Shown here piece after piece: positions 16,097-21,929 of a stretch of 64,000 bases of DNA (positions are counted from its first letter, which is position 1; each line of letters starts with the position of its first letter). The position numbers were made by a program, and so were the translations under genes. Under the pieces are notes generated by a model. It worked only from the letters and a program-made list of their open reading frames with translations. It had not been told where the DNA came from and searched no databases. This stretch comes from Natronomonas salsuginis (GTDB taxonomy: Archaea; Halobacteriota; Halobacteria; Halobacteriales; Haloarculaceae): assembly GCF_005239135.1 (NCBI RefSeq), contig NZ_QKNX01000002.1, positions 248,001 through 312,000 on the forward strand, given 5' to 3'.

Positions 16097-16621
16097 GCCC
16101 GACGCTTCGCGGGTCAGCAATGTAAGCCCTCGGTTCACCGCAACGACGGGTGCGAGTGGACGGTTGACATCCTCCTCGCAGTAAACATCGAGGTTTCCCA
16201 CGGTACTGCACCGCTGAGTTGGGATATTTGCTGGCTAATGACCCGTCGGTATGACGGGGCGATGGCGGGACCACACCGCCGTTACTCCTCTCCCGGCAGG
16301 GGACTCGGAGGTATCTTGACCGAGACACCACAGCGGTTCGAGAGGGTGTCTCGAACGTGCTGGTTCTCGGAGTCCCGATATTGCGCATTTAGGCTGGCGA
16401 CGAATCGCGTCGGTGTGCTTCACACTACGGAGTGACGTTACGGGGCGCTCGTGGTGTACCTGCTGTATCGGATCCTGCGTGCCGTCGAGTTGATCGCCGC
16501 GAAGTTGTGAGTGATCGACGTGCGAATCGCGTCAATCGACCGGTCGAGATTCTCCTCACCGTCCGACTGTGATAAACGCGATCACCAACCGAGGTGGTAC
16601 TCGACGGCGAGGGTGACTCAC
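16097..16621. other. Gene-free interval upstream of bat
   Basis: About 525 bases between the RHH gene and the bat promoter. Short frames on both strands (for example 65 residues at 16238) are Arg/Ser/Cys-rich, lack the acidic character of real haloarchaeal proteins and match nothing I recognise. No tRNA, hairpin terminator or repeat is clear. It may hold regulatory DNA or a decayed gene. Confidence 0.5.
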
Positions 16622-16631
16622 GTTTATATGT
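16622..16631 (+). promoter_or_regulatory. TATA element of bat
   Basis: GTTTATATG at 16622-16630, preceded by CAC as a BRE-like context, lies about 38 bases before the bat ATG. A start site about 25 bases downstream would give a leader of roughly 10-15 bases. Confidence 0.55.
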
Positions 16632-16645
16632 TCGGGGGGCGCTAC

Positions 16646-16660
16646 CCAAACTAGTGAGGT
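16646..16660 (-). promoter_or_regulatory. Bat-type activator site in the bat leader
   Basis: Read on the minus strand this is ACCTCACTAGTTTGG. It agrees with the published Halobacterium Bat/bop upstream activator consensus ACCcnactagTTnGG at every position except the lower-case fourth base. The core ACTAGT is palindromic, so orientation is weakly defined. It lies between the bat TATA element and the bat ATG, overlapping the likely transcription start, a place better suited to autoregulation than to activation. Confidence 0.55.
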
Positions 16661-16664
16661 ATTC

Positions 16665-18668
16665 ATGACCGAAGCGGAGCCCGCGCGAGTACTCTTCGTC
16701 GCCGAGGGCGACGACACCGACGGCCGTTCGGCCGCCCTGGCCGAGGAACCGTGGCTGTCCGTGTCGGCGACGGCGGACACCGAGGCGGCGCTATCGCAGG
16801 TTTCGGCGGTCGATTGTGTCGTCGCCGTCGAGGGACCATCGCTCGACGCCGTCGGCCTCCTCGAAGAGGTACGGACGCAGCGGCCCGACCTCCCCGTCAT
16901 CGTCGTCGCTGACGACGGGACGGTGGCGAGCGAAGCCGTTGCAGCCGGCGTCTCGGAGTTCGTCCCGAAGACTGCACCCGACGCCAGGGAACGCCTTCTT
17001 GAGCGAGTTCGATCGGGGGTCGAGTCGTCGCCGCTCCGGGGTGAGGGCGCGACCCGGATGCCGATCGAAGACCTCGAGTTGCGCGAAGAAATCCGGTTGA
17101 AAGAGCGGGCCATCGACGAGGCGCCAGTCGGGATCACCATCGCCGACGCCGACGCCCCCGACGAGCCGATGGTGTACATCAACGACGCCTTCGAGCGGTT
17201 GACCGGCTACTCGAAAGGGCGTGTCGTCGGCCGGAACTGTCGGTTCCTACAGGGCGAGGAGTCCGATCTCGAGGCCATCGCCGAGATGCGGAGAGCCGTC
17301 GATACGGGTGAACCGGTCTCCGTCGAGTTGCTGAACTACCGGAAGGACGGCGACCCCTTCTGGAACCGCGTCGACATTGCGCCGGTCCACGACGACGGGG
17401 AGGTGTCGTACTTTGTGGGGTTCCAGACGGACGTGACCGAGCGCAAAGAGGCTGAGATGAAGGTGAAACGCGAGCGACGGAACCTCCAACACCTGTTGGT
17501 CCGCATCGATGGTCTCCTGAATGACGTGACTCGTGAGCTCGTCGCCGGTGAACGTCGCGTCGACATCGAACAGGCTGTCTGTGAGTGTGTCGCCGACATC
17601 GACACCTACGAGTTCGCGTGGGTCGGCGTCCCCAACCACCCGACGGACGCGCTCGTAGCGTCGGCGTCGGCTGGCGCGTGGGCGGTGACGGACGCGACCA
17701 TCGGCGTTCCGCTCGATAATGCTGACCCGCTTCCGGCTGCCGCCGCCTACGAAACGGGCGAGTCACAGGTCGTCACCGACGAGGCGGAACTGGCGGCCGT
17801 CGCCGATCGGTCGCCGTGGATGGGCCACGATAACCTCGGTGGCATCGCCGTCGTCCCGTTGGTCTACGGCGAGACGACGTATGGCGTGCTCTCACTGTAT
17901 ACGACCGAGGCGGCGGCGTTGAACGATCACGAGCGCGTTGTTCTCGAAGCCATCGGACGAGCGACGGCGACGGCGCTGAACGCCGCCGAACGGGGTCGCA
18001 TGCTTGCGACGGACAGCGTGACGCAGCTGGGGATTGAAACGCGCGACAACGGGTTGTTCTTCGTCGATCTCTCCGAGCGGGCGGGCGGATCCTTCGCCTA
18101 CAAGGGGTCCGTTTACCGCGATGACGGCACCGTCCTGATGTTCTTCCAGTCGAACGCCGACTCGAATGCTGTCATCGACACCGCCGATCGATACCTGGAT
18201 ATCGCTTCGGCAGAGGTGATACACGAACACGGCGGCGAGACGCTGTTCGAGTTCACCGTCATCGACGACTCCCTGCCCACGACGCTGGCCGAACGCGGCG
18301 TGAGCATCCGTTCGATCGACGTCTCCGACGGGGTCGCAAACCTCGAGCTCGAACTCCCCACGGAGGCTGACGTTCGAGCGGTCGTCGACCACCTTCTCGA
18401 ACGCTACCCCGAGACGGATATCGTCGCCCAGCGCGAACGCGAGCGACCGCCCTCGACACGACAGGACTTCGTCGCCGACATCGAAGGCCGCCTCACAGAA
18501 CGGCAGTTGACCGCGCTGCAAAAGGCCCACGTCAGTGGTTTCTACGAGTGGGATCGCCCCGTAACCGGCGACGTCCTCGCCAAATCTATGGGAATCGGGC
18601 GTTCGACTTTTCACCAGCACCTCCGCGCCGCCGAACAAAAACTTATCGAGGCGTTCTTCGAACGGTAG
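16665..18668 (+). CDS. bat: Bacterio-opsin activator Bat with LOV-type PAS domain
   Basis: A 667-residue multidomain regulator of the bacteriorhodopsin regulon. Residues about 7-120 form a receiver-like domain whose phospho-acceptor strand reads CVVAVEGP, lacking the usual Asp. Residues about 145-262 form a PAS domain with full LOV features: GRNCRFLQG with photo-active Cys192, NYRKDGDPFWN, and VGFQTDVT carrying the flavin-contacting Gln. A GAF domain follows (about 275-450), then the BAT domain (about 450-600) and a C-terminal HTH_10 helix-turn-helix (about 606-660). It is expected to activate bop and related genes and faces the bop-crtY-brp unit tail to tail. Confidence 0.9.
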   Translation: MTEAEPARVLFVAEGDDTDGRSAALAEEPWLSVSATADTEAALSQVSAVDCVVAVEGPSLDAVGLLEEVRTQRPDLPVIVVADDGTVASEAVAAGVSEFVPKTAPDARERLLERVRSGVESSPLRGEGATRMPIEDLELREEIRLKERAIDEAPVGITIADADAPDEPMVYINDAFERLTGYSKGRVVGRNCRFLQGEESDLEAIAEMRRAVDTGEPVSVELLNYRKDGDPFWNRVDIAPVHDDGEVSYFVGFQTDVTERKEAEMKVKRERRNLQHLLVRIDGLLNDVTRELVAGERRVDIEQAVCECVADIDTYEFAWVGVPNHPTDALVASASAGAWAVTDATIGVPLDNADPLPAAAAYETGESQVVTDEAELAAVADRSPWMGHDNLGGIAVVPLVYGETTYGVLSLYTTEAAALNDHERVVLEAIGRATATALNAAERGRMLATDSVTQLGIETRDNGLFFVDLSERAGGSFAYKGSVYRDDGTVLMFFQSNADSNAVIDTADRYLDIASAEVIHEHGGETLFEFTVIDDSLPTTLAERGVSIRSIDVSDGVANLELELPTEADVRAVVDHLLERYPETDIVAQRERERPPSTRQDFVADIEGRLTERQLTALQKAHVSGFYEWDRPVTGDVLAKSMGIGRSTFHQHLRAAEQKLIEAFFER

Positions 18669-18679
18669 TTCCCGGTAAA

Positions 18680-19711
18680 TCAGCTGTTCCAGACACCCTC
18701 CCGGTGATCCATCCACGTCACGACGGCCACGTGGGGTAGGGTAAGCACGGCGACGAAAACGAGATACAGCCCCGTGAACTCGGAGGCGTTCGACGGCGAT
18801 GCGGGGGCCAGCAGGCCGAACAGGACGAGGAAAACCAACGCGAGGACGGTCAACGGTGCCGCCTTGCGGGCGAAAGCGGAGAAAAGACGACCGGCGGTCG
18901 TCCTCACCTCCTGCTCATCGATCGCGGAGAAGCGGAGCACGTGCCGCAGCGAGTGCCACACGCAAAAGTAGACGCCGACGGCCAGGATCGGCGGCACCGT
19001 AAAAAAGAGCGCCCACAGCAACGCCGTCTCGCCGGCGTCGATGCGCCAACCGCGAGTTTCCCCGGCACGACGGTGCCCGACGAGTAGCACACCCACGGTG
19101 ACTGCGAGGAAGACGGCCCCACCGAAGAGTCGGAGATGCGGCACGAACGCCCACGTCGCAGAGAGATCGCCGCCGAACAGTTCAACCCACGTCTCGAGGA
19201 CCGCCCGATACCGTTCCGGGAAAGCGAGAAACGGGACGAACATGGGGAGGCCACCGCGGACGAAACACGTCGCGACGCGTAGCCCCGTCGAGTCGATGTG
19301 GTCGGCGCCGACGAAGGACACGAGGGCGTGTACGTCGCCCTGTCCCCAGTGGAACCAAGTCAGTGCAATGAAGATCGTCGCGGCCGCGAGCGGCTCGGTG
19401 AGCCACAGTGCCGTGTAAGCGCCGCCGAGTACGGCGTAGAGACTGCCAACGAGAGTCATCGAGGCAGCCAGCGATCGGCCGTCGAGTTGGGCCGGGATGA
19501 GATAATCGACCGCGCCGTGAGGGAGCCCGAAAACGACGACACTGGCCGCCAGGGGGAGGTATCTGACTGTCGGCGGAAGCGAGACGTCGAATAGTCGTCC
19601 GAGGATCGACCCGACGACGAGGAGGGCACAGACCGTCCACGCGGGGCGGGCAGCAACTCGGTCGTAGACTGCGCGGAACGTGGGCGTTGGTCGGCCGACG
19701 GTCACGCCCAT
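18680..19711 (-). CDS. brp: Brp/Blh beta-carotene 15,15'-dioxygenase
   Basis: A membrane enzyme that cleaves beta-carotene to two retinals for bacterio-opsin, 343 residues. About nine hydrophobic segments are visible. The conserved histidines expected to bind iron lie in VFGLPHGAVDYLIP, ALTWFHWGQGD, VWHSLRHVL and LTLPHVAVV. It is the last gene of the minus-strand bop-crtY-brp unit. Its start overlaps the 3' end of crtY by 10 bases, indicating translational coupling. The 3' end is 11 bases from the convergent bat stop. Confidence 0.92.
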   Translation of the reverse strand: MGVTVGRPTPTFRAVYDRVAARPAWTVCALLVVGSILGRLFDVSLPPTVRYLPLAASVVVFGLPHGAVDYLIPAQLDGRSLAASMTLVGSLYAVLGGAYTALWLTEPLAAATIFIALTWFHWGQGDVHALVSFVGADHIDSTGLRVATCFVRGGLPMFVPFLAFPERYRAVLETWVELFGGDLSATWAFVPHLRLFGGAVFLAVTVGVLLVGHRRAGETRGWRIDAGETALLWALFFTVPPILAVGVYFCVWHSLRHVLRFSAIDEQEVRTTAGRLFSAFARKAAPLTVLALVFLVLFGLLAPASPSNASEFTGLYLVFVAVLTLPHVAVVTWMDHREGVWNS

Positions 19712-20499
19712 CGGTCAACCACCCACCGAAACAAGACCAGCCCCTGCACGACGAATAGATTCGTCACGAGGAAGAACAGCGCTTCCTCGATAGGCAGGCC
19801 GAAGAGTTCGATGCCGGTCGTGTACGTCGGTGAGATGTACCAGATGCCGGTCGCCAGCGCGACTCGGTCGATTATCCAGAGGTACAGCGTCGGGACGGCG
19901 ACTCCGAGGGCGACCGTCCGACGCTGGTACAGCAACTGCGGGAGGCCGACGACCCACTGGACGAACAGGACCGGGGCGGCCCACACGAGGATAGCTCCGA
20001 GGTAGAACGTATCGGGCGTCGCAAGCGCGAGACCACCGAAGACGCCGATCGAAACGGCGGCGACGACGCCGATCAACCGGAGACCGAGCCCGAGGCGACC
20101 GACCTCGAGAACTCGACCCCAGTCGGCGATCTTTCCGAGTCCGGATAGCTCCGGCCATCCAGGACGGAGGGTCAACTGCCCCAGCCACAGCGCCGTGAGT
20201 ATCGGCTGAATGACAAAAAAAGCGTACTCGCCGACGGGGGCGAATCCGAGGTGAGCGATCGTCCGCCCGTCGCCGTACCCCCAGACGCCGCGAGCGATGA
20301 GGTAGTTATCCCACGGCGTCGTATAGATGACGGCGACGAGTGTGACGATGGCGACGCCGGTCCAATAGATCGGTCGACCGACCGGCCACACTGTCGAGCG
20401 GATAGTCCGGGTCCGGGTCACCGTCGCCGCCGCGAGCAACATCGCTACCACGGGCAGGAGGAACGCGAGGTGAAACTGCATGTACGTCGGGCCGCTCAT
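19702..20499 (-). CDS. crtY: Lycopene cyclase (CrtYcd-type, fused)
   Basis: Cyclises lycopene to beta-carotene, the substrate of Brp. It is a 265-residue polytopic membrane protein with two tandem lycopene-cyclase domains. The first carries PWDNYLIARGVWGYGDGR and GEYAFFVIQP. The second carries LYLWIIDRVALATGIWYIS and LPIEEALFFLVTN. The paired P-W-D-N and P-x-E-E motifs are diagnostic of the fused haloarchaeal/fungal type. The ATG at 20499 was chosen; MQFHLAFLLP at 20481 is an alternative. It follows bop by 119 bases with no visible promoter, so probably shares its transcript. Confidence 0.88.
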   Translation of the reverse strand: MSGPTYMQFHLAFLLPVVAMLLAAATVTRTRTIRSTVWPVGRPIYWTGVAIVTLVAVIYTTPWDNYLIARGVWGYGDGRTIAHLGFAPVGEYAFFVIQPILTALWLGQLTLRPGWPELSGLGKIADWGRVLEVGRLGLGLRLIGVVAAVSIGVFGGLALATPDTFYLGAILVWAAPVLFVQWVVGLPQLLYQRRTVALGVAVPTLYLWIIDRVALATGIWYISPTYTTGIELFGLPIEEALFFLVTNLFVVQGLVLFRWVVDRWA

Positions 20500-20618
20500 G
20501 CGGCGTCCCCTCCGGCCGTCGGCCTTGCGAGGGGAGTAGGCGTCTTGGGATGCATAACAGGGGGCCATGGGGGCGGTGTCGAGACGGGACGTCTCGTGGT
20601 CAAGGGTGCGACCGGCAC

Positions 20619-21383
20619 TCAGTCACCGTCGGCGGGTTGGGTCGCACCCATCGCCGCATCGGCGACCTCGCCCGCGGCATCGAGGACTTCGCGGCTCGAC
20701 AACAAGATGATGCCGAAGCCGACCTTGGCGACGAGGTCCAACACCATGAAGCCGGCAGTCTCGGTGTAGAGGGTGACCAGCCCGAGACCCTCAGTGCCGA
20801 GTATCCACCACACCGGATACACCAGCCAGACGACCACGATGAGGTTCCGGAGGATACGGAACGTCGATTGGGCGTCCGCCGAGAGTCGGTTCGCCTCTTC
20901 GGTCAGCGTTCCAAAGAGGAAATACAGCAACACCAACAGGAAGCCGGTCGAGACGCCCCACCAGATGAGGCGGTCACCGACGGGGCCGAGCAAGACGCCC
21001 GTCGTAGACAGCGTCGCCACGGCACCGGTGCCGATCATCAGCGCGTCCAGACCGACCAGTGTGGTGATCTGATTGCGGTTCGCTCCGGCGAGTAACGCGA
21101 GGTCGATGAGCAGCAATGGCGTTGTGAACAGCCAGTCGGTGTACCGCGCCCAGTAGATGGGCAACTCTTCACCGGCGACCGTGACCGTCGTCAAACCGAA
21201 CCCGAGCGCCATCATCAGGTAGTTGACGAAGGCGATTGCGGTAATGAATATCGTCACGATATAGAACTCTTGTCTGCGTCTGTTCTCCTCGCCCCATCCG
21301 CGGGCGATGAAGTACAGCATACCGAGGAACATTCCAGCGGTGCCGATCCACAACCACAGTACTTCGCTTTCTGGAGTTGCCAT
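20619..21383 (-). CDS. bop: Bacteriorhodopsin (light-driven proton pump)
   Basis: A 254-residue seven-helix retinal protein. The third helix reads [19 protein letters not shown], giving Arg80, counter-ion Asp83, Thr87 and proton donor Asp94 (equivalents of bacteriorhodopsin R82, D85, T89, D96). Glu198 and Glu208 match the proton-release pair. Asp216 and the Schiff-base Lys220 lie in [11 protein letters not shown]. Having D85, T89 and D96 equivalents makes it an outward proton pump rather than a halorhodopsin or sensory rhodopsin. The start lies about 35 bases after a TATA box preceded by a Bat site. Confidence 0.96.
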
Positions 21384-21415: not shown

Positions 21416-21440
21416 GAAATATATACCCAACTAGTATGGT
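21416..21440 (-). promoter_or_regulatory. bop promoter: Bat UAS plus TATA box
   Basis: On the minus strand ACCATACTAGTTGGG (21426-21440) is followed at once by TATATATTTC (21416-21425). The first element fits the Bat upstream activator consensus ACCcnactagTTnGG except for the weak fourth base. An activator site abutting the TATA box is the known layout of the Halobacterium bop promoter. The TATA centre is about 37 bases from the bop ATG, leaving a leader of about 10 bases. Confidence 0.8.
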
Positions 21441-21803
21441 TAGCGCGGCAATAATTTCTCTCGAGAGAACGACATGAGAAGAGTCGAAGGGATCTCGAAG
21501 TTTTCACGTCCGACTCGAATAAAACGCGACACAATTTTTCGATGATTCTGTGCCAAAATATGTAGCGCACGTATGAGTACCACCCAACAGTTCAAGTCGC
21601 TGGTCCCGAGCGGCGAAAGCGCGTATAGAGGCGGACGTACGAAGGTCAGGACTGTGGGAACGTTTTAACACTTCGAAGTCATCCGAGGGGGACCAATGCA
21701 TGGAGTGTTGAACGATGTCGTCGAACCGAAAGGGAGCGAGACCGTGATCGGCGAGATCTGACCGCCAGCGGTTGCTGCTCACGGAGAGTTCACAGCGAAA
21801 TGA
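21441..21803. other. Gene-free interval between bop promoter and tRNA-Pro
   Basis: About 360 bases with lower GC than the flanks. The only frame of note (118 residues on the minus strand, 21504-21860) runs through the tRNA gene and is Ser/Arg-rich, so it was not called. No repeat or hairpin stands out. Confidence 0.45.
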
Positions 21804-21874
21804 TGGGACCGCCGTGATTCGAACACGGGTCCAACGGACCCCATCCGCAGAGGATACCACTACCCCACGGTCCC
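21804..21874 (-). tRNA. tRNA-Pro (anticodon GGG)
   Basis: A 71-base cloverleaf can be folded. The acceptor stem is GGGACCG with CGGTCCC and the discriminator is A. The T-arm is CCGTG-TTCGAAT-CACGG. The D-arm carries GGT-x-A. The anticodon loop is ATGGGGT, with GGG at 21840-21842 reading proline CCC (and CCU). No CCA is encoded and no intron is seen. A TATA-like GGTTAAACG lies about 30 bases upstream on the minus strand (about 21902-21910). Confidence 0.93.
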
Positions 21875-21929
21875 ATGCATTTCGATGGATGACTGAGGAA
21901 CGTTTAACCCCTTCGTTTCGCCGTGCCGT

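Follow-up and report, generated by a model that had tools for sequence, protein, structure and literature searches.

Bat is the regulator of a classic light-energy system of archaea, and the control of bat itself has been described mainly for Halobacterium. In the 64-kb stretch of the Natronomonas salsuginis genome analysed here (the window), a palindrome of the kind found upstream of bop also lies in the leader of bat, and the question raised by this locus is what such a site is doing between the TATA box and the start codon of the gene for its own presumed regulator. Its sequence and position suggest that the regulator which switches on a light-driven proton pump may limit its own production. 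Since the operator is short and well placed, the sign of the feedback on Bat can be tested directly.

The bat-bop cluster and its two operators

The bacterio-opsin activator gene bat (plus strand, 16665-18668) encodes a protein of 667 aa with PAS, GAF, BAT and HTH_10 domains (Pfam). It converges with a minus-strand group comprising brp (18680-19711), for the beta-carotene 15,15'-dioxygenase of retinal synthesis, a crtY-like lycopene cyclase gene (19702-20568; a weak Pfam match, below the cut-off) and bop (20619-21383), for a bacteriorhodopsin-type opsin (Bac_rhodopsin, E 7e-67). The Pfam matches and the synteny of bat, brp, crtY and bop mark the protein as a Bat regulator linked to bop and brp; by Bat protein, the closest named relative is Natronomonas gomsonensis. 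The bop gene carries an activating operator (UAS), ACCATACTAGTTGGG, at 21426-21440 on the minus strand, just 5' of a TATA-like stretch, with the palindrome ending 42 nt before the ATG. An operator of their own was looked for at the brp and crtY-like genes of the window, and neither has one; the crtY-like gene is likely cotranscribed with bop. Upstream of bop, a tRNA-Pro (ggg) gene occupies 21802-21875 on the minus strand, and a 118-aa frame at 21504-21860, which overlaps it and is without a Pfam match, is probably not a gene.

Read 5' to 3', the bat leader consists of the TATA box TTTATAT (plus strand, 16623-16629; beginning 42 nt before the ATG), 16 bp, the palindrome, 5 nt and the ATG at 16665. 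The palindrome (16646-16659, without a strand of its own) reads CCAAACTAGTGAGG and, in a sequence and pattern search, is an exact instance of the Bat-family operator CCNNACTAGTNNGG, the centre of which is somewhat tolerant. The 15-mer at 16646-16660 is CCAAACTAGTGAGGT on the plus strand and ACCTCACTAGTTTGG on the minus strand, and it shows 0 mismatches to ACCYNACTAGTTNGG; the initial annotation had put it one weak base away from the Bat UAS consensus. The Bat-type site claimed at this place in an initial annotation is thus present, and its assignment to the minus strand, although the minus-strand sequence is as given, means little for a site that is nearly palindromic. Four other bat leaders of the same clade have CGTTTATA or a similar sequence at 41 nt from the start codon. 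About 40 bp 5' of the bat TATA box is a short inverted repeat, GTGAT-AAACGCG-ATCAC (16569-16585), in upstream DNA that differs in both relatives sharing the leader operator.

If the start of bat transcription is placed about 26 nt 3' of the centre of the TATA box, the usual haloarchaeal spacing (PMC10817205), it is expected at 16651-16653 on the plus strand and so coincides with the centre of the palindrome (16652.5). The placement that had been proposed, between the bat TATA box and the ATG and over the likely start, is borne out by these positions. The leader site is not where an activating UAS would be, just 5' of the TATA box and about 36-43 nt before the ATG; it is an operator sequence, not an upstream activator. 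A regulator's own operator 3' of the TATA box or over the start is the arrangement of negatively autoregulated archaeal regulators, and this geometry is found in three genomes, with the start predicted from TATA spacing.

The right arm of the palindrome has a second possible use, which the initial annotation had not mentioned. It overlaps a Shine-Dalgarno-like GAGGT (plus strand, 16656-16660), well placed 4 nt before the bat ATG and recognized as such from what is known of the 16S rRNA 3' end in haloarchaea. The left arm and the centre, CCAAACTA, lie outside it. Since the right arm doubles as a Shine-Dalgarno sequence, part of the conservation of the leader, described below, may reflect selection on translation; the conservation of the left-arm CC..ACTAGT is not explained in this way.

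Rarity and conservation of the leader site

In the 2.9-Mb genome, a pattern search found the exact palindrome CCNNACTAGTNNGG at two places only, the bat leader and the bop UAS, and no copy of a reversed control pattern. In the window the tetranucleotide CTAG is 14-fold depleted (15 seen against 210 expected), and with this depletion allowed for, 0.23 exact palindromes would be expected per genome where two are found. Within the window the hexamer ACTAGT likewise occurs twice, at 16650 and 21430, that is, in the bat-leader and bop sites. With the looser centre CYRG the pattern matches 12 places in the genome against 2 for the control. Allowing three mismatches makes the pattern uninformative (13 matches, 14 expected).

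For comparison we took the neighbourhoods of Bat-like genes in other haloarchaeal genomes, sixty regions in all. Of 36 bop entries, 24 have the palindrome upstream, either exact or with a single mismatch, and it also precedes some of the crtY, brp and more distantly related rhodopsin genes; the family operator is therefore well defined. In 23 aligned cases the AT-rich TATA position falls at bases 9-12 after the palindrome. At most bop loci 41-43 nt separate the end of the palindrome from the ATG, and at some 37-38 nt; at crtY and brp the distance is mostly 36-38 nt. Because the bop palindrome lies just 5' of the TATA box and the bat palindrome 3' of it, the bat copy is on the opposite side of its promoter.

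Several further features of these regions were seen. The bop operator of five loci from a group of related genomes (L113, L116, L117, L121 and L122) reads TCCAACTAGTTNGG, with the first C consistently changed, perhaps matched by a change in Bat. A palindrome also follows the matched-frame end of some Bat-like genes by about 4-12 bp (L095, L096, L098-L101, L103, L106 and L107; for example CCTGACTAGTCAGG after the stop codon), as if it activated the next gene. At L190 (G059; minus strand, about 1501-1590), a gene that resembles bop and has a normal operator agrees with the bop of the window for 33 residues and then continues in another frame, and may be a broken or frameshifted bop.

The initial annotation had proposed that the leader site be sought in the bat leaders of other haloarchaea, and the scan gave a divided answer: two Natronomonas relatives keep it, with a CCAG centre, and it is absent from the other leaders examined. 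Where the window has TACCCAAACTAGTGAGGTATTCATG, N. gomsonensis (L003; identical in G393) and G392 have TACCCAAACCAGTGAGGTATCCATG; the operator itself reads CCAAACCAGTGAGG, its central CTAG being changed to CCAG (CTGG on the other strand). The variant fits the bop profile, since the bop operators of these relatives also carry centres other than CTAG (CTGG in N. gomsonensis, CTTG in G392). The distance from operator to ATG is identical in all three, and the spacer to the TATA box is one base shorter in the two relatives. Between the window and N. gomsonensis, 21 of the 23 nt before the ATG are identical, against 56% identity at the fourfold sites of bat (binomial P 3e-4), which is supporting and not conclusive, as change in leaders is often slower than at fourfold sites. 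Farther upstream than about -46 no similarity is left among the three genomes, and the TATA box and the operator are the conserved parts. Directly upstream of bat, each of the three Natronomonas genomes with the operator has DNA of its own (L069, L070), which suggests repeated rearrangement at the bat edge of the bop cluster.

Elsewhere the site is degraded or missing. The bat leader of G275 holds only a partial site, AACGAGTG, and there is none in that of G253, the closest relative of the N. gomsonensis group and its partner in the Bat tree (85/98); it is missing likewise from the leaders of G394, G396, G400 and G307 and from more distant bat genes, and among the other bat leaders of the fetched loci none has a site at fewer than two mismatches. 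The contig of strain CBA1123 ends inside bat and so lay outside the scoring of leaders. We also considered a general leader operator near haloarchaeal start codons and rejected it: in 392 genomes, palindromes that lie 2-14 nt ahead of an ATG show no visible excess over the reversed control, and among 30 start-proximal loci that were fetched, the palindrome stands before a bat gene only at the window locus.

A candidate for negative autoregulation

We lean toward the view that the leader site is a Bat operator which, in one Natronomonas group, would block initiation and so mediate negative autoregulation. With Bat plentiful or active (at low oxygen and in the light, by analogy with Halobacterium), its binding to the operator on the 5' side of the bop TATA box would activate bop-crtY-brp. 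Bat, probably as a dimer, would also bind 16646-16659, across the bat transcription start and the ribosome-binding site, and from this position 3' of the bat TATA box it would block RNA polymerase and so limit the synthesis of Bat. We infer here the identity of the binder, repression by its binding and the position of the start. Negative feedback is the most likely interpretation, on present sequence evidence, because archaeal sites downstream of the TATA box repress and those upstream activate, as described for TrmB/TrmBL1 (PMC4706686, PMC10817205). The family also offers a precedent for such a dual role, since the Bat-like NarO (PMC11218638) is described both as an activator of nar and as a nitrate-dependent repressor of dms (PMC10062603). 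Negative feedback at bat had been suggested in the initial annotation, and the suggestion is supported in part: an operator of the bop type is found across the TATA box from its place at bop, overlaps the expected start and is kept in two Natronomonas relatives. It does not extend to a general rule, as the other bat leaders examined are without the site and the feedback in Halobacterium would be positive.

Other readings of the leader site have to be weighed against this one. The operator might be bound mainly by another HTH_10 regulator or by an unrelated repressor, with bat controlled in a cascade. The genome has 13 HTH_10 matches, so that a paralogue could bind, and the palindromes just past the stop codons of Bat-like genes in several lineages point to a site common to more than one subfamily; a separate regulator should, however, have further targets, whereas the exact palindrome occurs here only at bop and bat, and the second of its two sites belongs to bop, a known Bat target in Halobacterium. 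We consider this reading unlikely. It is slightly less likely still that the conserved block is a translation signal, the Shine-Dalgarno sequence GTGAGGT, and resembles an operator by chance. A conserved GAGGT 4 nt before the ATG is what such a signal would give, but it covers only the GAGG arm and leaves the other eight specified bases, CC..ACTAGT, outside; the left arm is kept as well (CCCAAAC), and a chance occurrence at this spot is very unlikely, given the 14-fold depletion of CTAG and the presence of only two exact copies in the genome.

Bat might also bind the leader and act there positively or neutrally, for example by aiding its own promoter as in the brp-bat unit of Halobacterium, where the Bat regulon includes bat (PMC1502140) and brp, cotranscribed with bat, is reportedly activated by Bat (PMC2253796). 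Yet the genes presumed to be activated carry the palindrome just 5' of the TATA box and the bat copy is 3' of it, over the expected start, with no TATA-like sequence at activating distance downstream of the leader operator, and we hold positive or neutral action to be improbable. Least probable in our estimate is a vestige, in which bat acquired a promoter fragment with a Bat operator during rearrangement of the cluster and any strong function has since gone. Such a history would suit the rearranged upstream flanks of bat in each of the three species and the loss of the site in G253 and its degradation in G275, but not the retention of 21 of 23 positions by two species that agree at only 56% of the fourfold sites of bat.

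Two further candidates were rejected. A divergent gene as the true target finds no place, since the three genomes with the site have unrelated sequence farther upstream than about -46. An RNA hairpin in the leader was set aside too: the palindrome alone is unfolded, and the leader shows no more structure than its shuffles (z 1.17). A scan for sigma-70 promoters and terminators, which is unsuited to archaea, found nothing.

Relation to known regulatory circuits

That Bat controls bat is an idea already known. In H. salinarum the brp-bat unit places bat within the Bat regulon and implies feedback on bat (PMC1502140, PMC2253796), and this feedback would be positive because bat lies behind brp in a shared transcription unit and activation of brp by Bat has been reported (PMC2253796). 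The initial annotation knew of no established description of such a site in a bat leader; we likewise found none in the open-access literature (subscription papers lay outside the search), although control of bat by Bat was already implied in Halobacterium. What is new here is the operator in the leader of bat itself and the sign that it would predict. In the Halobacterium-like cluster L124, a palindrome with one mismatch lies 37 nt before brp and bat directly follows brp, a layout that by its sequence is the activating one. Clusters with bat ahead of bop (e.g. L113, L116, L121 and L122) have bat leaders without the operator. It is conceivable, at a little short of an even chance, that the sign of Bat feedback was reversed in haloarchaeal evolution by an operator placed across the TATA box, being positive in Halobacterium-like brp-bat units, absent where bat precedes bop and lacks its own operator, and negative in a single Natronomonas lineage. 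If this is true, the contrast with the Halobacterium-like clusters would be a case of a circuit rewired by moving one operator across a TATA box.

The bop copy in the window is a standard UAS, as in Halobacterium, and the palindromic class and the regulator family (PAS, GAF, BAT, HTH_10) are those of the bop-type UAS and Bat of that genus; the bat-leader copy differs from the Halobacterium bop UAS in lying 3' of the TATA box, over the expected start, and not 5' of it. Control of bat in H. salinarum runs through brp and is positive, whereas in the window bat is served by a promoter of its own, the sign is predicted to be negative, and brp belongs to the bop group on the opposite strand. TrmB/TrmBL1 likewise use one motif to activate from upstream and to repress from downstream of the TATA box (PMC4706686, PMC10817205), but they belong to an unrelated protein family and respond to an unrelated signal. 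Closer in family is NarO of Haloferax volcanii, a Bat-like protein reported to activate nar and to repress dms (PMC10062603, PMC11218638); as far as we found, it represses another operon and not its own gene, as proposed here for Bat. The motif of the denitrification promoters of H. mediterranei, CGAAYATDKTYG, differs from the Bat operator.
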